From Opitutus sp. GAS368 (lineage in GTDB: Bacteria > Verrucomicrobiota > Verrucomicrobiia > Opitutales > Opitutaceae): 49,536 nt of DNA. Under the pieces are notes generated by a model that worked only from the letters and a program-made list of their open reading frames with translations, was not told where the DNA came from and ran no database searches. Below, piece by piece: positions 4,701-26,182 of the stretch. The stretch is from assembly GCA_945874455.1 (NCBI GenBank), contig CAMCHO010000008.1, positions 1 through 49,536 of the forward strand, given 5' to 3'. The translations under genes and the position numbers were made by a program. Every line of letters begins with the position of its first letter. Positions within the stretch are counted from its first letter, which is position 1.

Positions 4701-5446
4701 CCAGTTTCCTGGACCCGTTTCAGTATTCACAGTCCGGAACCTCGGACCAGATCGCCAAAGGCCGGGAGATCGAGATCAGTTACAATCCGACGAAATTCTG
4801 GACCATGAAGGTCAATGTCGTGGAATCGAAAACGATCCAGGCGAACATCGGTCGTGAACTCGTCCAGTATCTGGACGAACGCATGAAAGTGTGGCCGACG
4901 ATCATCGATCCGACCATCAATGCCCCTTGGTTCACTAACAACTATGGCGGCGGCCCTGCCGTAAACACCACCCCGGCGGCCAATGTTGAGCAGCAAATCC
5001 GTGCTCCGTTGGCGCTGCAACTCGCCAGCGAAGGCCTCTCGAATCCTCAGATTCGCAAGTACCGGCTCAACGCGCTGACCAATCTTCGCCTCGAGGGAAT
5101 CACCGATAACAAAATCCTGAAACGCTTCAACGTCGGCGGGGCGCTGCGCTGGGAGGACAAGGGAGCGATCGGCTACTGGGGCAAACAGCAGGTGCCGTCC
5201 GCCATCACCGAATACGATCCCTATCGGCCGCTTTACGACCGGGCTCACTTGTATGTCGATGGTTTTGCCGGCTACCGCACGCGGTTGTTCCGCAACAAAG
5301 TCGGAGCCACCTTTCAGTTAAATGTCCGCGATCTGACCGAGGGCGGCCGCCTGCAGCCGATCGTCGCCGACCCGGACGGATCGATTGCGGCGTGGCGGAT
5401 TGTCAGCCGGCGCCAGTTCATCTTTACGACGACGTTTGATTTCTGA
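1715..5446 (+). CDS. TonB-dependent outer-membrane receptor with N-terminal STN domain
   Basis: 1243-aa receptor (GTG at 1715; an in-frame ATG at 1739 is an alternative). Residues about 48-67 look like a signal sequence. The STN signalling domain follows at about 74-150 (SFDLPAGEAAAVFKQFIAQSRVQ...), then a Pro/Ala linker at 155-184. At residue 185 (ATG at 2267) a second, complete signal-peptide-like segment begins (MKSPKLLSILSLLAFGATEA, cut after ASAQ), followed by ELSPFMVTSEKDAGYYG, the mature N-terminus usual for Opitutaceae receptors. Plug domain about 245-390, then the 22-strand barrel, ending in the aromatic FTTTFDF expected for BAM insertion. The STN domain and the FecR/ECF neighbours show that it signals as well as transports. 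Substrate unknown. The buried second signal peptide suggests a young gene fusion or an internal start. Confidence 0.93.
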   Translation: MTPGVVLGMRTLLPARHDPRRFRSASNCFLRWFVLVAVPLPRVYFPPTYAIHFALGCALISSVGAATTPEASAKRSFDLPAGEAAAVFKQFIAQSRVQLLYVADDATSVRTNAVKGAFTPREAIDRILAGTSLIAVQTDSGSIAVKTLAPQVRPGISPTPISPPAKPAEPAANPRNQTNAPQTPMKSPKLLSILSLLAFGATEASAQTAPVAPATSETVELSPFMVTSEKDAGYYGANSMSGTRMNTKLEDIAASITVITKQQMMDLALLNMDDIFSYEASTEGTRNYTAFSFDRNQVAIDNTQFDPLNANRIRGVGAANVSFGNFETSGRTPIDVLDVDAVEIGRGPNSNVFGIGSAAGTVNTVRANANVQRNRSQVGFRVDSYDGYRTSLDLNRVLLPGKLAVRGTVVAQREGFQLKPSGMNTERYNGMVRYQPFKTTSLSASHTYYHSYGNRPNTTTPRESITAWRDSGSPTWDPLTNSATRNGVTTVGVPSYFNRSTFSGNTMFMLDPNGLFWWGQNTGQGRNLQGVNQDPTGYRASQPLIYDYPALTSKDIYDWTRFNLGAPNRTDDKNQIASILLDQTLFTTQRQAAFVQLGWFREQTYRFTRNVMGNLTQSILSVDVNKNLPDGRANPGFLRPYVSVNHNLNVNPLDRDTYRAQGAYKLDFTQDKNWMRWLGRHDVGAFYEYKDFKSWSRTYEDVIVDDHTWLRDAVRSGAASSGLPMGTTQGRPYPFFYMGDTQGQNIDYAPANYNTGTYPVTTTLNPGGQWTTENARIGAAWSGGGISWTELKSRGVTLQSRLLNDRVVTTFGLRHDARYSRVGTAPLLNRDGYTVNEASFLTWAPSDWTLGKGPTRTAGIVVKPLRWLSVYANKSDSFQPANVNTDVYLRKLTDPTGKGEDYGIMINLFAGKVVVRANQYTTTQAKSRNGNVGIFASRLITIDRPSGLGSDLPAGFGFQLRSQATGWVTTAAAAKGQTLTQSEINTQVAAIMKMPTSFLDPFQYSQSGTSDQIAKGREIEISYNPTKFWTMKVNVVESKTIQANIGRELVQYLDERMKVWPTIIDPTINAPWFTNNYGGGPAVNTTPAANVEQQIRAPLALQLASEGLSNPQIRKYRLNALTNLRLEGITDNKILKRFNVGGALRWEDKGAIGYWGKQQVPSAITEYDPYRPLYDRAHLYVDGFAGYRTRLFRNKVGATFQLNVRDLTEGGRLQPIVADPDGSIAAWRIVSRRQFIFTTTFDF

Positions 5447-5537
5447 GGATATTCTGTGCAACTCGCTCCGTGGCCCACCTGTTTCACGCGCTTGCTTTAG
5501 CTGTGATTGGTTTCTCCAGGCTCGGGTCGCTACCCGC

Positions 5538-8500
5538 ATGAAATACCTCCTCCTCGTTCTGCTACTCGCTCCCCTCGCCGCACTGCACGCCGCCGATCTC
5601 ACCCTGACCTCACCGCGTGATTTCCAAGTCGTGCAGCGGGCGACTCCCACGCGGGGGCTGCTGAAAATCGCGGGGCAGCTTCCCGAGCCGGTGCCGGGCG
5701 ATGCGGTCCTGGAGGCGCGGTTGGTCGGCGCCGCGTCGGACGCAGGGTGGCAGCGACTCAATGCGACGTTTGCCGACCGCACGATTTCCGGCGTCCTCGA
5801 CGCTGCGGCCGGTGGTTGGTGGAGGCTCGAGGTGCGCGTTTCGCACGGCGGCAAGGCGGTCGCGTCGGGAGCTGTCGAGCATGTCGGCGTGGGCGAGGTG
5901 TTCGTCATCGCGGGGCAGTCAAACTCGGCTAATCACGGGCAGGAAAAACAAAAACCACAGAGCGGTCGCGTCGCCACGTTTGATGGCACGAGCTGGCGGC
6001 TCGCGGACGATCCGCAGCCGGGCGCGAGCGGTGGCGGGGGTAGTTTCATCCCGCCATTTGCCGATGCCGTGGTGGCCAAACAAGAGGTGCCCGTGGGCAT
6101 CATCGCCTGCGGCATCGGCGCGACGAGTGTGCGCGAGTGGTTGCCCAAGGGCGCGACCTTTCCGAATCCTCCCACCATCGAGCGCCGCGTCGAGAAACGC
6201 CCCGACGGCACCTGGGCCAGCCAAGGCGCAGCCTACGACGCCTTCGTCGCACGTTTGAAACCACTCGGACCGCAAGGCTTTCGCGCCGTGCTCTGGCATC
6301 AGGGCGAGAGCGATGCGAACCAGAAAGACACGTCGCGGACGCTGGCGGGCCCGCTTTACCGCGAGTATCTCGAAAAGCTCATCCGCGACTCGCGACGGGC
6401 GATCGGCTGGGAAGCGCCGTGGTTTGTCGCACAGGCGAGTTATCATGTGCCCGGCGACGAAGGCAGCGCCGACATCCGCGCGGCGCAGGCCTCGCTGTGG
6501 AAGGACGGCATCGCCTTGGCAGGTCCGGACAGCGATGCGCTGAAAGGCGAGCTGCGCGAACGTAACGGTCAGGGTGTTCACTTCAGCGGCCAGGGCCTGC
6601 GCGAACATGGTGCAAAGTGGGCGGAGAAGGTCGTGCCGTGGCTCGATCAACAATGGACGGCGCCGAGGCGTGCGCATGGCGGCACGGAATGGAGCCGCTA
6701 CGAGCACCTCCCCGAGTGCCATAGCATCGGTTGGGTCAGTGCGAACGTGCAGACGAAGGACACGCAGAGCTGGAACGGCGTGCTCGATGAAGCGAAGTGG
6801 GGCACGCCCGCGCCGCAGCAGGTGGTGGGGCGAAATTGGGATTGGAAAATCAGTGCCGCGCAGTGGGCCGAAGCGGTGAAGCAGAAAGGCGAAGGCAAAC
6901 GCGAGGAGGTGAAGTGGGATCTCTGGCTGCCGGATGGGGTGAGCGTGGTGAAAGGCATCGTCGTCATGTCCGGTCACGGCAGCGGCGAGAATCTCTTCCG
7001 CCGTGCTGACCTGCGCGCGCTCGCCCAGGAGCTGCACTTGGCTTTGTTCAAGTTCGTGGGCAATCCCGTGCAGCGGGGCTTCTGGCCGAGCGGTTTACTT
7101 TTCGATCGATTACAGATTTGGGGCGAAAAAACCGGCCACCCTGAGCTGGGTCATGCGCCGCTCTTCCTCTACGGCCACTCGAACGGCACCGGCTTCTCTG
7201 CGGCGTTCCCCGCGTCTGCGCCGGATCGCGTCTGGGGCTGGGTGTCGATGCGCCCCGGCATCACGTTTCAGGTGTATCAGCCCGGCGCGGCGCAGGTGCC
7301 TGGGTTGGTCATCTTCGGCGAGGACGATCCCTTTCTTGCGCGTCCGTCCAAGGAGGAGAATCTCGCCGTCGTCCCGACGCTGAGAAAAAACCACGCCGCC
7401 GTGTGGAGCTTCGCCGTCGAGCCGAAGACCGGTCACGGCCCCGGTGAAAAGACCTGGCCCTTGGTGTTTTCCTTTCTCCGTCACAGCTTCGCGGCGCGGG
7501 TGCCGGCCGCTGGCGACGCTCGCCAAAACCCCGTGAAGCTAAACTCCCTCCCCCTCGAAAAAGGCCACCTCGGCCAAAACTGGGATCCGACGAAGGGCGG
7601 CTATCAAACCCTGACCGTCACCCCGTTCGCAGCGTTCAAAGGCAACCAAGCCACGGCCTCCTGGCTCATCAACGCCGCCTTTGCCACCGACTGGCAGGCC
7701 TTTCAGCGCGAGGGAAAAATCAACGCCCCGCCCGCGGCCATCGAGCCAAGAAAACCTGCGACCACACCGGCCTCTGCTCCCGCGAAGCAACCGCCAGCCA
7801 AACGCCTCACGTCCGCCGAGCAACGCGCGGAGGCAGCACAGCACGCGGTGCGTATACCCAGCTCGATTGACGGATCAGAACAACTCGTCATCTGGCATTG
7901 CCCCGAGAGCGCAGCCCGCGAGGTGGAGGGCAAAGCAGTCCCGCTCTTGGTCTACCTCCATTCGTGGAGCGGCGGCTTCGAGCAGGGCGTGTCCTTGATC
8001 GGCCTCGCGAAGAAAATGGGCTGGGTGCTCGTCGCTCCCGATTTCCGCGGACCCAATAGCCGTCCCGAAGCCTGCGCCTCGGAACTCGCCTCCCAAGACA
8101 TTCTCGACGCCGTCGATTACGCGAAGAAACACGCTCGCATTGACTCGTCCCGCATCACCCTCCTCGGCGGCTCGGGTGGTGGCCACATGGCCCTCGTCAT
8201 GGCCGCCCGCGCACCTCAGGTGTGGGCTGGCGTGAGCGCCTGGGTGCCCATCTCCGACCTCGCCGCCTGGCACGCGGAGAGCACCGCCCGCAAGACCAAC
8301 TACGCAAAGATGCTCGCACAATCCTGCGGCGGCCCGCCCAGCCCGACGACCGAGAGCGAATATCGGAAGCGCTCCCCCCTTTTTCATCTCGCAGCAGCCA
8401 AGAATGTGCCGCTCGACATCAATACCGGTATCCACGATGGACACACGGGGTCCGTGCCAGTGAGCCACTCGCTCTACGCGTTCAACGCCCTGGCCGCAGC

Positions 8501-21943: not shown

Positions 21944-22726
21944 CTATTTATTTTGATTACGTTCGATAAAGCTACGCAGCGCTAGGATCGCCTGCGTGTG
22001 GATCTGACTAATCCGGGCCTCCGTCAAATCCATCGCCTCGGCTATTTCAGCGAGCCGCAGTCCTTCAAAATGGTACAACGCCAGCACTTTTCGCTGCGTC
22101 TCGGGCAACATCTCAATGCGGTCGGCCACTAAACGCCACAATTCAGCCCGCTCTAAGCCCGCAGAGGCCGGTTCCAGATTTTCGTCGGCGATCGTCTCGT
22201 GCAGCTTGAATCCGTCCCCGTCTTCATACGCCGACGCATCGATGTTGATAAAGGTGACCGGGCTGGATTCCAGCAGCCACGCTTCGTACTCAGCGGGTGT
22301 CAGCTGCAATTGACGCTGGATCTCTTCTGCCGTCGCCGCGCGTTGGTGCTTCTGCTCCAACTCAGCGATCGCATCCTTTAATTTACGCGCCTTGGCCCGG
22401 GTCCGACGGGGACACCAATCCAAGCGCCTCAATTCATCAAGAATCGCTCCGCGGATTCTAGTATACGCATACCCAGCAAAGGTCCGGCCCTCTTGCGGGA
22501 CGTACCGCTGCGACGCCGCGATCAAACCCATCACCCCCATCGAATGGAGGTCATCAGCATCAATGTGCGGGGGCAGGCTCATCTTGATCCGACCGACGAC
22601 CTGACGCACCAATGGCAGGTGCTCCTCGATTAAGGCCATCGAAGCACCGGTCGTCTGTTGGTAGGCCTTGTACGCCATCGGCGAAATCGGTGGCGGAGGC
22701 GTATCGGATGAAAGAGGAGGTTCCAT
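21944..22726 (-). CDS. fliA: Flagellar RNA polymerase sigma-28 factor FliA
   Basis: 260-aa sigma-70 family protein of the FliA/WhiG group. Region 2 reads LVRQVVGRIKMSLPPHIDAD, then DLHSMGVMGLIAASQRY with FAGYAYTRIRGAILDELR. Region 3 is at about 115-160, and region 4 at about 200-255 (LPETQRKVLALYHFEGLRLA, then EIAEAMDLTEARISQIH). It should transcribe late flagellar genes, none of which lie in this window. Its own transcription probably comes from the flhB promoter. An anti-sigma FlgM gene is not seen here. Confidence 0.95.
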   Translation of the reverse strand: MEPPLSSDTPPPPISPMAYKAYQQTTGASMALIEEHLPLVRQVVGRIKMSLPPHIDADDLHSMGVMGLIAASQRYVPQEGRTFAGYAYTRIRGAILDELRRLDWCPRRTRAKARKLKDAIAELEQKHQRAATAEEIQRQLQLTPAEYEAWLLESSPVTFINIDASAYEDGDGFKLHETIADENLEPASAGLERAELWRLVADRIEMLPETQRKVLALYHFEGLRLAEIAEAMDLTEARISQIHTQAILALRSFIERNQNK

Positions 22727-22753: not shown

Positions 22754-23020
22754 TCATTTCTTAGCTTTGGCGACCACAGTTTCACCTTTTTTTTGACGAT
22801 TGGCCTTGGAGGCGGCCTCGGCCGCCGCGCGTTTTACGGCGACGGTGATCCGCATCGCACCCAAAACATGATTCCAAAACCAATGACCCGCGAGTCCGCC
22901 CACTACGGCGGCGATACAAGCATCCCGCACGACCAACGCGATAGTCCGATCAGCCCAAAGGCCGGCCAAAAAGACCATCGTGAAGAAAACAAAACCGAAC
23001 ACCAAAAATATGTAGCGCAT
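22754..23020 (-). CDS. Small two-helix membrane protein in the flhG position, unknown
   Basis: 88 aa with two hydrophobic segments (about 3-22, YIFLVFGFVFFTMVFLAGLW; and about 28-50) and a basic Lys/Ala-rich C-terminal tail (KRAAAEAASKANRQKKGE...). It sits between flhF and fliA, the slot in which many bacteria encode the MinD-like ATPase FlhG; it has no relation to FlhG. The spacing to both neighbours (5 and 27 nt) shows that it belongs to the operon. Function unknown; the basic tail could face the cytoplasm and contact nucleic acid, lipid or the divergent FlhF. Confidence 0.7.
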   Translation of the reverse strand: MRYIFLVFGFVFFTMVFLAGLWADRTIALVVRDACIAAVVGGLAGHWFWNHVLGAMRITVAVKRAAAEAASKANRQKKGETVVAKAKK

Positions 23021-23025
23021 ACGAA

Positions 23026-24054
23026 TCAGCTCTTGCCCAAGGTTTTTTTGGCGAGGAAATCGAGCGGATCGACGCCAATGGGGCCAAGCAAGTTGCCGTC
23101 ATGCGAGAAGAAAAGGGGACGCATTTCTCCCTCGAGCAAAATTTCCCAAAGTTTACCCACATCTTTAGCCTCGTCCAGGTGCGTGAGCACCACGTGGGTA
23201 GCCCCGAGCGAACGGCCCGATCTCAAACCAGCACGCAGGCTTTCGATTTCATACGCGGCATTCAACACGAGCACCCGCGTCTCGATCGCTTGTTGCCTCA
23301 ACAAATCAGCCAACTGCGGCGTTTCGTCGCCCGCGGCCGCGCCGAAGCAAGGCACATCCCAGTAAACGCGCGCGTCCTCATCACTTACCCGCTGATCCGG
23401 CGTATAGTGAGTCAGCCCCACACCCACCGCATCGCAAAATACTTCCAACTCGAGACAGGGATTGGGCCGGCTAAATTCCACATGGCACACGCGGCACTTG
23501 GTGCCCTGCTGAAACACTTCCCACGTCAGCCATTGCCCGAGCGCCAACGATTTGTCAGCCTGCGAACTACCGATAAAAACCACCCGCTGACTGAGCGGCG
23601 CCGCCGGAAATGCTCCCACCAATTGCCGTAATTCGCGCACAAATTCCGCCAGCGCATCACCCAAAGGCTTCTCGACGGAGATCGACCAACGCCGCTCCGT
23701 TTCCACGCGCCACAGCAGCGCTTCGGAAAATCCCGCCGCCTTCAGCGCAGCCCGCAAATCCACGGGCCGGCTCCCTCGAGCCAACCCAGCCGCATACGTC
23801 GCACTCAACACCCCCGGCACCGGAGGCGCTAGCGCCACCTCCCTCGCCGATTCGGGCGCCGCGAGCTCAGCGATGACTTCCAGTTTAGCTCCGCTGAAAA
23901 TACGTTGGAGAAAGCTCTGACGCAGGGGCCGCACCGAGAGCACGCGCGCCTCGGGCCCCAACTGCGATTTGAGCACCGCAAGCGCCTCGTTTACGGAGCG
24001 TACGATGAACCGGTAGGTGCCCGGCGTGGGAGATTTGAGAGCAGATGAAGCCAT
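23026..24054 (-). CDS. flhF: Divergent FlhF-like SRP-type GTPase with degenerate nucleotide site
   Basis: 342 aa from the ATG at 24054, 4 nt after flhA (a longer frame reaches 24084). The N-terminus (YRFIVRSVNEALAVLKSQLG, PEARVLSVR) is the FlhF B-domain signature. The NG-like C-terminal half keeps the fold (THVVLTHLDEAKDVGKLWEI resembles the G4 region) but lacks the active motifs. The P-loop reads GSSQADKS instead of GxxxxGK[ST], the DTYR region is HVEFSRPNP, and the DTAGR motif is absent. FlhF normally places the flagellum and supports FliF assembly in a GTP-controlled way; this copy is probably a poor nucleotide binder. Position between flhA and fliA supports the name. Confidence 0.8.
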   Translation of the reverse strand: MASSALKSPTPGTYRFIVRSVNEALAVLKSQLGPEARVLSVRPLRQSFLQRIFSGAKLEVIAELAAPESAREVALAPPVPGVLSATYAAGLARGSRPVDLRAALKAAGFSEALLWRVETERRWSISVEKPLGDALAEFVRELRQLVGAFPAAPLSQRVVFIGSSQADKSLALGQWLTWEVFQQGTKCRVCHVEFSRPNPCLELEVFCDAVGVGLTHYTPDQRVSDEDARVYWDVPCFGAAAGDETPQLADLLRQQAIETRVLVLNAAYEIESLRAGLRSGRSLGATHVVLTHLDEAKDVGKLWEILLEGEMRPLFFSHDGNLLGPIGVDPLDFLAKKTLGKS

Positions 24055-24058
24055 GGGA

Positions 24059-26182
24059 TTAAGCCGCCGCACGGGCCGTTTCAACCGGCGCCGAGATTAT
24101 CCCGGCATTCTCGATCTGGTAAGTCCCCGGTATTTCTTGGAAAGACACGACCGAGAGCCGCGGGAACGTCGGCTCCAGGAAACGCCGCAACGCCAACCGC
24201 AACTCGGCGCCCACCGCGATGCACGGCGCGCTGCCGCCGGCGGCGAATTCCGTCTGCTTGGCGTTGATCCCTTGGAGTAAATGCGCGCTCAACGCCGGAT
24301 CGAGTGCCAGACCGTAGTCAGCCGCCGTCCGATGGATTTTGGCGACCAGCTCTTTTTCGAGGCGCAAATCGAGCGTCAATGCCCGCACCGTACCCGGAGC
24401 CGACTCCAGCAACGGCACAAAATAAGGCCCCAGCCGGCGCCGCACCAATTCGCTCAAATCGTCAGGATTCTTCGTCAAGACCGCGTAATCGGCGATCCCT
24501 TCCAAGATCAACGGCAGATTGAGAATCGGTACATTTTCACGGAGCAAATTTTGCAACACACGCTGGATGATACCGAGATTGACCAAGTCCGGCAACAACT
24601 CGCTGACGAGCGCCGGATGCGATTGCTTCACATGATCGATCAACGACTGCACATCTTGCCGGCCGAGTAAGACATGGGCGTTCGACTTCAAAATTTCGGA
24701 GAGATGCGTGACGATGATCGAGGCGCAATCCACCACCGAGTAACCGTTGATTTCCGCATTCTTCTTTTCGGCTTCTTCAATCCACACCGCCGCCAGCCCG
24801 AAGACCGGCTCCTGACACGCGACACCCCGCAATTGTACGCGACTGCCCGATACATTCATCGCCATCCAGCGACCCATCATGAGCGAACCACGCCCCACGA
24901 TCCGGCCACGCAAAAGAAAACGGTACTCGCCACTCGCAAGCTCTAGATTGTCGCGCACCGCCACCTGCGGCACGATGACACCCAATTCGCGGGCTAAGGT
25001 TTTGCGCACGCCGGTGATGCGCGCGGGTAAGTCGCCACCTTGCTTCTGATCCGCTAAACCCACCAGGCCGAAGCCCACTTCCACCGCAAACACATCGACG
25101 TCGATCAAGCGACGCACTTCCTCCACCGAGCCACTCTTGGGCGGCGCGGCTTCTTTATCCTTGGCCTTCTCAGCGGCGGTCTTGGCGACCGGTTCCACCT
25201 CAGGCGCGACCTCCGGAAGTTTATAGCCAATATAGAGAAAAAATCCGCCCATCAAACCGAGCGGCAAGAGGGGCAACCCCGGCATGAAGCCCATGAGTAA
25301 CATCACCGCGCCGACCATCTTCAACGCAACCGGATATCGCACCAGTTGGCCGCCGACCTGTTGACCCAGGTCGCCGTTATCCGCCGCCCGGGTGACCAGC
25401 AAACCCGCAGCCACCGAAATCACCAGCGCTGGAATTTGCGTCACCAGACCATCACCGATCGACAGCAACGTGAATTTTTGCAGCGACTCCATCAGCGACA
25501 AATCCATCTGCAACACACCGATCATGAAGCCACCCAAAATATTCACCAAGGTGATCAAAATACCCGCGATCGCTTCACCACGCACAAACTTCGACGAACC
25601 GTCCATCGCGCCGTAAAAATCCGCTTCCCGTTGCACTTTGAGCCGCCGAGCCGTGGCCGTAGACTCATCAATCGTCCCCGCGTTCAGCTCTGCATCGATC
25701 GCCATCTGTTTACCCGGCAACGCATCCAAGGTAAACCGCGCCGACACTTCTGCGATCCGGCCCGCGCCCTTGGTAATGACGACAAAGTTAATCACGACCA
25801 AAATCACGAATACCACGAAGCCGACCACGTAATTACCCTGAATCACGATCTTGCCGAACGCATCGATGATGTGGCCAGCTTCACCCCTCGTCAGCACCAA
25901 GCGCGTCGAACAGATGTTCAGAGCCAAGCGGAAAAGCGTCAGGCCCAACAACACGGTCGGAAACGCCGAAAATTCTACCGGTTGGCGCACGTAAATCACC
26001 ACCAGCATGATCAACAACGACGAAGCGATGCTGAGCGCCAGCAGCATATCCATCACCACGAACGGCACCGGCAGCACCAAGAGCATGATCGTGCCAAACA
26101 ACCCGGCCGTGAAGATAAGATCGGCCCGGCCTAAAAGTTGGCGGGAAAACGTCGTTGCGGAAACGGGAACAACAGCAGCCAT
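24059..26182 (-). CDS. flhA: Flagellar export gate protein FlhA
   Basis: 707 aa, the normal FHIPEP-family length. About eight transmembrane helices fill the first 320 residues, including the conserved cytoplasmic loop (GAGRIAEVSARFTLDALPGK, QMAIDAELNAGTI, RREADFYGAMDGSSKF-type block). The soluble C-terminal half forms the ring that receives export substrates from FliI/chaperones. It begins 5 nt after flhB. The family is essential for flagellar type III secretion, and no reduction is visible. Confidence 0.97.
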   Translation of the reverse strand: MAAVVPVSATTFSRQLLGRADLIFTAGLFGTIMLLVLPVPFVVMDMLLALSIASSLLIMLVVIYVRQPVEFSAFPTVLLGLTLFRLALNICSTRLVLTRGEAGHIIDAFGKIVIQGNYVVGFVVFVILVVINFVVITKGAGRIAEVSARFTLDALPGKQMAIDAELNAGTIDESTATARRLKVQREADFYGAMDGSSKFVRGEAIAGILITLVNILGGFMIGVLQMDLSLMESLQKFTLLSIGDGLVTQIPALVISVAAGLLVTRAADNGDLGQQVGGQLVRYPVALKMVGAVMLLMGFMPGLPLLPLGLMGGFFLYIGYKLPEVAPEVEPVAKTAAEKAKDKEAAPPKSGSVEEVRRLIDVDVFAVEVGFGLVGLADQKQGGDLPARITGVRKTLARELGVIVPQVAVRDNLELASGEYRFLLRGRIVGRGSLMMGRWMAMNVSGSRVQLRGVACQEPVFGLAAVWIEEAEKKNAEINGYSVVDCASIIVTHLSEILKSNAHVLLGRQDVQSLIDHVKQSHPALVSELLPDLVNLGIIQRVLQNLLRENVPILNLPLILEGIADYAVLTKNPDDLSELVRRRLGPYFVPLLESAPGTVRALTLDLRLEKELVAKIHRTAADYGLALDPALSAHLLQGINAKQTEFAAGGSAPCIAVGAELRLALRRFLEPTFPRLSVVSFQEIPGTYQIENAGIISAPVETARAAA

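Follow-up and report, generated by a model that had tools for sequence, protein, structure and literature searches.

A degenerate GTPase site in FlhF of an Opitutaceae genome and the stepwise loss of FlhF nucleotide motifs in a class without recognizable FlhG

FlhF and FlhG have been presented as a conserved switch that governs the place and number of flagella (PMC12826062). The nucleotide-binding elements of SRP-GTPases are described as the P-loop (G1), DTxR (G2), DxxG (G3) and (N/T)(K/Q)xD (G4) motifs (PMC10910532). In S. putrefaciens, the FliG-interacting domain (FID) of FlhF is reported to bind FliG, the NG domain of FlhF to bind the landmark protein HubP independently of nucleotide, and FlhG to stimulate the FlhF GTPase in order to recycle FlhF (PMC11236974). 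A dependence on GTP has been described in other species: mutation of the GTP motifs of FlhF causes defects in Vibrio (PMC7226244), FlhF-FliG binding requires GTP in P. aeruginosa (PMC12713375), and so does the homodimerization of FlhF in B. cereus (PMC7218170). The P. aeruginosa FlhF/FleN pair is described as including a FleN without the DQAxxLR motif, showing that the activator helix of FlhG can be lost; it differs from the locus analyzed here in having retained both the GTPase activity of FlhF and FleN itself (PMC12713375). Among the matches listed in a search of the open-access literature, none was recognized by its title or the start of its abstract as concerning FlhF in Verrucomicrobia/Verrucomicrobiota, or an FlhF without GTPase activity or without FlhG, and no nucleotide binding, hydrolysis or motility test of an FlhF from the class studied here was found in the portions of the literature searched.

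The window is a stretch of 49,536 nucleotides from Opitutus sp. GAS368 (contig CAMCHO010000008.1), in which flhF occupies positions 23026..24054 of the minus strand as an intact ORF of 342 amino acids that starts with an ATG at 24054 and encodes a degenerate GTPase site. Its product resembles known FlhFs (B. subtilis 2PX0/2PX3, S. putrefaciens 8R9R, FID 9EN1) in the FID-linker-NG layout, in both folds and in the operon place of its gene after flhA; it differs from them in that the G1-G4 consensus fails throughout, no FlhG was found, and only 25 of the 174 bits required by TIGR03499 are reached. The FID, at the start of the B domain, covers residues 12-65 (23860..24021, minus strand; AlphaFold and sequence profile), and the N and pseudo-G domains cover residues 82-342 (23029..23811, minus strand; AlphaFold and structure comparison). 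A first-pass annotation had described the B-domain signature as intact. The signature is indeed present, but weak: TIGR03499, the NCBIfam model for FlhF, matches residues 15-76 with 25.1 bits (E=1.6e-5), below its curated cut-off of 174 bits. FlhF was the sole NCBIfam family matched at E<=0.01. A Pfam search with the window FlhF returned no match, and SRP54 (Pfam, E<=1) was matched by 25 of 28 alignment members, the window counted in. A profile of the window FlhF and 82 relatives identified B. subtilis FlhF (2px0, E=3.4e-44) and S. putrefaciens FlhF (8r9r, E=8.3e-36) in the PDB.

The AlphaFold model, built from 83 sequences with a mean pLDDT of 87.5, shows an NG domain preceded by a small domain of mixed alpha/beta structure. 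Averaged over ten-residue blocks, pLDDT is mostly 79-97 from residue 101 onward and lower at residues 81-100 (58-68) and at the very end (55). The predicted NG domain retains the FlhF fold, with a Z of 21.8 to FlhF 8r9r (240 residues, 3.7 A) and of 21.6 to FlhF 2px3; chains of FtsY and Ffh were tied with these structures to within 1 Z. Folded alone, the FID matched 9EN1, the solved FID of S. putrefaciens FlhF, with a Z of 7.2 and an rmsd of 1.3 A (49/49 residues aligned), followed by a next row at Z 5.0. Foldseek likewise placed 9EN1 at rank 1 with a probability of 1.00, but at E=0.046, and a sequence profile of the FID returned 9EN1 first (E=0.0039). Because both the NG fold and the FID fold match FlhF structures, and in line with the profile matches, the window ORF is an FlhF; membership in another P-loop family is ruled out by the two folds and by FlhF being the only NCBIfam match. 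The FlhF profile matched the window locus alone in this genome, which is 95.5% complete in 333 contigs, a state of assembly that we have counted against the best explanation. Candidates for a second, intact FlhF resolved into other proteins: FtsY and Ffh account for the two strong matches to SRP54, and a DEAH helicase (HrpA) and an ABC transporter ATPase for the two weak ones.

All four nucleotide motifs of the window FlhF fail the SRP-GTPase consensus. The P-loop reads GSSQADKS (residues 162-169; 23548..23571, minus strand) and does not fit GxxxxGK[ST]: its lysine and serine (Lys168, Ser169) are retained, and the glycine before the lysine is replaced by Asp and the inner glycine by Gln. In addition, the second Thr of the P-loop is changed to Leu and K174 to Gln. 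The former G2 position (DTxR) carries EFSRPNPC (residues 193-200; 23455..23478, minus strand, from the motif table), and the former G3 (DxxG) reads DVPC (residues 233-236; 23347..23358, minus strand), so that DVPCF stands in the place of DTAGR. In the former G4 (TKxDE), which reads THLDE (residues 291-295; 23170..23184, minus strand), the Asp is kept and His replaces Lys. The first-pass annotation, which had read the P-loop as GSSQADKS and had reported motifs equivalent to DTYR (here EFSR) and DTAGR as gone, was thus correct in these respects, and the broken GTPase site is real. Asp233, Asp294 and Glu295 remain in place and, together with the P-loop Lys and Ser, may still allow weak or altered nucleotide binding, as far as can be judged from these residues. 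On the branch leading to the window, changes in five nucleotide motifs taken together were not significantly enriched over other conserved sites (14/36 vs 18/68, p=0.26). Higher proportions were obtained for the P-loop alone (7/11, p=0.03) and for the P-loop with G5 (12/19, p=0.002), both in tests picked afterwards.

The first-pass annotation had also considered the operon position to be intact, and this holds: the order is flhA-flhF-small ORF-fliA-motA-motB. Upstream of flhF, and conserved beside it, lies the ORF at 24059..26182 (minus strand), which we take from its sequence to be flhA. fliA, encoding sigma-28, is located at 21944..22726 (minus strand) and is named from its place, its product showing Sigma70 regions 2, 3 and 4. 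Between flhF and fliA, where flhG would lie, an ORF for an 88-aa protein is found (22754..23020, minus strand). No Pfam match was obtained for this small protein, in which two hydrophobic stretches, an Arg near the second of them and a polar tail can be discerned by eye. It is likely, from these sequence features, to be a membrane protein resembling FlgV. As described for FlgV of B. burgdorferi (BB0268), it lies beside the sigma-28 gene and has hydrophobic stretches (PMC10802407); the likeness is one of place and eye-read features, set against the description of BB0268. A profile comparison of the window-type small protein with that of canonical loci gave a moderate match (probability 87.7, E=3.4e-6). 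The arrangement of flhF, a small ORF (74-125 aa) and fliA, lacking flhG, was present in 18/18 flagellar loci of the family and order, 13 of which were identified by BLAST similarity of the small ORF to that of the window and the other five read from ORFs. In one locus (L045 in genome G012), about 3 kb (4840-8002) separate the small ORF from fliA; in most of the others this gap is short.

The FlhF half of the FlhF-FlhG switch is present in the operon; the partner gene flhG, on which the first-pass annotation was silent, is absent from it. In 13/13 canonical loci from elsewhere in the phylum, eight found via FlhF and five via FlhG itself, which biases the choice, a MinD-like FlhG gene directly adjoins flhF. 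DQAxxLR is present in 12 of these 13 FlhGs, lying well inside the ORF as called at L184, and reads SQAASLQ in the remaining one (L127). With a profile built from eight FlhGs, the proteins beside the 13 canonical FlhFs scored 317-504 bits. At E<=1e-35, the profile matched 22 of 387 genomes of the phylum, all outside the window's class: 13 with a canonical FlhF, one with a cut-off flhF, six without FlhF and two without flagellar neighbors. Three such genomes (G445, G485, G508) were not counted as canonical, owing to a lack of flagellar neighbors or a cut-off flhF. Among 57 relatives including the window genome, by comparison, the best score was 50.8 bits, which corresponds to MinD/ParA-like background, and a match of any kind at E<=1e-8 was found in 46 of the 57; no FlhG-like gene rises above this background in the window genome. 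PF13614 matches in that genome, among the matches listed, fall on contigs other than that of the window. In the 60 class genomes where the FlhF profile found a match, the FlhG score never exceeded 67 bits, and a search of 29 further flhF loci of the class found no FlhG.

Across 286 genomes of the class, only three exceeded 190 bits with the FlhG profile (G165, G220, G152), all three outside the set of 60 matched by the FlhF profile. These MinD-like proteins (approximately 199-230 bits) were rejected as FlhGs: they match from profile positions 33-37 onward, no activator motif was detected in them, and their genomes gave no FlhF match. Two genomes of family f23 (G081, G099) contain near full-length MinD-like matches of 64-66 bits on contigs other than that of flhF, which may represent a diverged FlhG. 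A mirror state was observed in six genomes of families f83 and f76, which have flhA and an FlhG-like gene and no detectable flhF. No DQAxxLR-like activator motif was detected at their loci (L172, L173, L176, L180, L183, L185), and flhA and the FlhG-like gene are adjacent in the five whose ORFs were inspected.

The first-pass annotation had treated the window protein as a single odd FlhF. This is not borne out by a comparison of 92 FlhFs, 79 from the window's class and 13 canonical ones from elsewhere in the phylum, in which it stands at the end of a class-wide rewiring. Two fragments (L023 and the 99-aa L179), two Ffh (L132, L208), and one FtsY (L207) were dropped before counting, as were repeat loci of genomes already represented; G053, the flhF of which is seen in L052, and the fragments of G034 were not added to the 79. 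Each of the motifs G1-G4 conforms to the consensus in 13/13 canonical FlhFs and in neither member of the pair formed by the window FlhF and that of its relative G008. DTxR occurs in 13/13 canonical FlhFs and in 0/79 of the class, so that an alignment of homologues revealed no intact set of motifs among close relatives. TH.[DE]E (THxDE or THxEE, for TKxDE) is found in 74 of the 79, or in 72 of 75 when the window pair and a divergent pair from family f23 are set aside. These 75 members retain G1 in 43 and G3 in 66 cases, G2 in none and G4 in one. Five residues are nearly invariant in the 77 class rows that remain when the f23 pair is left out: Asp233, Pro235 and Glu295 in 77/77 and His292 and Asp294 in 76/77, position 292 being Lys in 13/13 canonical FlhFs. 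They may now serve the fold or binding rather than catalysis. The f23 pair itself (L085:6844-7962, L086:6632-7819), left out of the conservation profile and of alignment A3, is a second, separate divergent form of FlhF with GMPGCGKT or GLPGSGKT, DMTRP or DMSRP (no DTxR), DYNG or DWNG (DxxG kept) and TQAD.

There is also a warning here for annotation pipelines. With up to eight candidates scored per genome, the TIGR03499 cut-off was reached in 0/286 class genomes; an FlhF-profile match was obtained in 60, in two of which (G065, G212) it was FtsY and Ffh, leaving 58 genomes with a match to some other protein.

The P-loop lysine position is K in 47 of the 79 class FlhFs, the window pair included, and R in 23, S in five, A in two, T in one and C in one. 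Among the best 80 of 99 scan loci it is R in 57, K in 12, S in six, V in three and A in one, with one locus not covering it; seven of the 12 K loci have the collapsed ADKS form. Nine of the ten S, V or A loci in that set (L283, L284, L286-L290, L292, L294, L295) are labeled Chthoniobacter flavus or Spartobacteria and one Verrucomicrobia bacterium, and such rows form a second lysine-loss clade in the FlhF tree. This tree was computed by a quick method after removal of the motif columns, with SH-aLRT as the only support measure and with long branches flagged, one of them being that on which the f23 pair meets the outgroup. The class FlhFs lie on one side of a branch with an SH-aLRT of 100. The window pair falls inside a clade of 27 rows (SH-aLRT 95), the other 25 of which all lack the lysine, at the end of a branch of 1.37 changes per column. 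Scored as lysine kept vs lost, with the window pair as lost, the tree requires at the fewest two changes, and seven when all letters are distinguished. Judged from sequence, the lysine has been lost at least twice in the class. Since the window pair sits in a clade whose other 25 rows have lost it, the Lys of the window loop looks like a secondary R-to-K change. Separately, FlhA of the window and of G008 groups with that of other genera (G032, G013) rather than with that of G005 from the same genus (loci L040, L041, L044, L054), and FlhF does likewise; either an exchange of the flagellar cluster between genera or an unnatural genus may lie behind this.

GxxxxGK[ST] is retained in 45 of the 79 class FlhFs (43 of the 75 and both f23 members), which, from this motif, may still bind nucleotide. 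This retention, together with the strong conservation of DxxG and THxDE in the class and the presence of Asp233, Asp294 and Glu295 in the window, would suit a class that evolved a rewired nucleotide switch with another base and another activator, the window FlhF binding nucleotide weakly via Lys168, Ser169, Asp233 and Asp294. We regard such a switch as unlikely, however, as in G1 of the window lineage Asp precedes the Lys and the inner Gly has given way to Gln or Pro, DxxG has become DVPC, many relatives have R, S, A, T, C or V instead of the lysine, and no FlhG activator was found. Far less probable is that the pseudo-NG domain pairs as the inactive half of a heterodimer with an intact FtsY or Ffh supplying the nucleotide. 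One FtsY and one Ffh are encoded in the genome, and the NG fold resembles them about as closely as it does FlhF, but in the composite site of SRP GTPases both partners have to contribute motifs.

The collapse of the P-loop is confined to the window's lineage, both in the 79 class FlhFs and in the best 80 of 99 scan loci. A scan of named genomes identified eight loci with 88-95% identity (best segment) to the window FlhF, labeled uncultured Opitutaceae, Opitutae, Opitutia and similar. The collapsed loop, with GSSQ, GSSP or ISSS before ADKS, is present in all seven that cover it, the eighth (L224) not reaching this part, and is thus common to the window and seven named genomes. Because 7/7 close homologues carry the same loop, a local mutation or sequencing error is unlikely. 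A comparison of the window with G008 (92% identity) gave a dN/dS of 0.146 over FlhF and of 0.096 over the G domain, eight neighboring genes spanning 0.036-0.222; the B domain alone gave 0.42, on 20 changes. When six lineage homologues are added to the window in a pooled estimate, dN/dS is 0.072 for the whole FlhF and 0.056, 0.062 and 0.057 for the FID, N and G domains, respectively, and residues 158-178, which include the dead loop, show 0.039 (seven members). ORFs are intact and of the same length in 7/7 lineage sequences compared. These low values reveal strong purifying selection on FlhF of the window lineage and argue against decay. That the window flhF is a decaying remnant after loss of need, a pseudogene in the making, is accordingly the least credible reading, for although all four motifs are lost, the branch to the window pair is long and the B domain value is raised in the single comparison with G008, the lineage dN/dS is low throughout FID, N and G, the same-length ORFs and the operon place are conserved and the fold is confident.

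The most probable explanation, in our assessment, is that the window FlhF is a genuine FlhF in which the GTP cycle has ceased and which has become a nucleotide-independent adaptor after the loss of FlhG. In this model, FlhG, the ATPase that sets off GTP hydrolysis by FlhF, would have been lost in the class ancestor and, presumably afterwards, the active site of FlhF rebuilt, with DTxR lost and TKxDE changed to THxDE. Once the switch was gone, the P-loop lysine would have been lost at least twice, and in the window lineage the whole P-loop would have been replaced. The N-terminal FID would bind FliG and help to nucleate the MS/C-ring, and a constant docking surface or anchor would come from the folded pseudo-NG domain; the protein would do so without binding nucleotide, as a monomer or nucleotide-free dimer. 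As NG-HubP binding is described as nucleotide-independent in S. putrefaciens and the FID there binds FliG, FlhF could hold both partners without GTP, and a switch-less FlhF could, by analogy, still bring FliG to a docking site. The GTP dependence described in Vibrio, P. aeruginosa and B. cereus implies that the class must have compensated. Motility occurs in some Opitutaceae: Lacunisphaera is described as motile cocci (PMC5303756), and flagellar motility is listed for Opitutus terrae (PMC10288369). One may speculate that a spherical cell gains less from controlling the polar placement and number of its flagella, and that FlhG was lost for this reason. That a switch-free FlhF adaptor has taken the place of the FlhF-FlhG nucleotide switch in the whole class is a more tentative proposal, to which we give slightly less than an even chance.

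The first-pass annotation had suggested that the window FlhF may act as a nucleotide-free scaffold. This role is plausible: it fits the destroyed site in the window and seven other genomes, the purifying selection, the kept folds and the lack of FlhG. The change in the site is not a peculiarity of one protein: it is class-wide and stepwise, selection maintains it, and it is accompanied by a lack of FlhG. An FlhG-less clade that dismantles the GTPase of FlhF in steps separates two jobs of this protein, scaffolding and switching, and its natural variants, with the lysine kept, the lysine lost or the loop erased, are suited to testing which steps of assembly need GTP. If a switch-free adaptor is indeed in use, flagella are still built with it, in some members by spherical cells. 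The GTP cycle of FlhF would then do no more than control where and how many flagella form, and FlhF could play its part in assembly without it; the window lineage would represent a natural experiment in which the site has been erased and the protein nevertheless kept.
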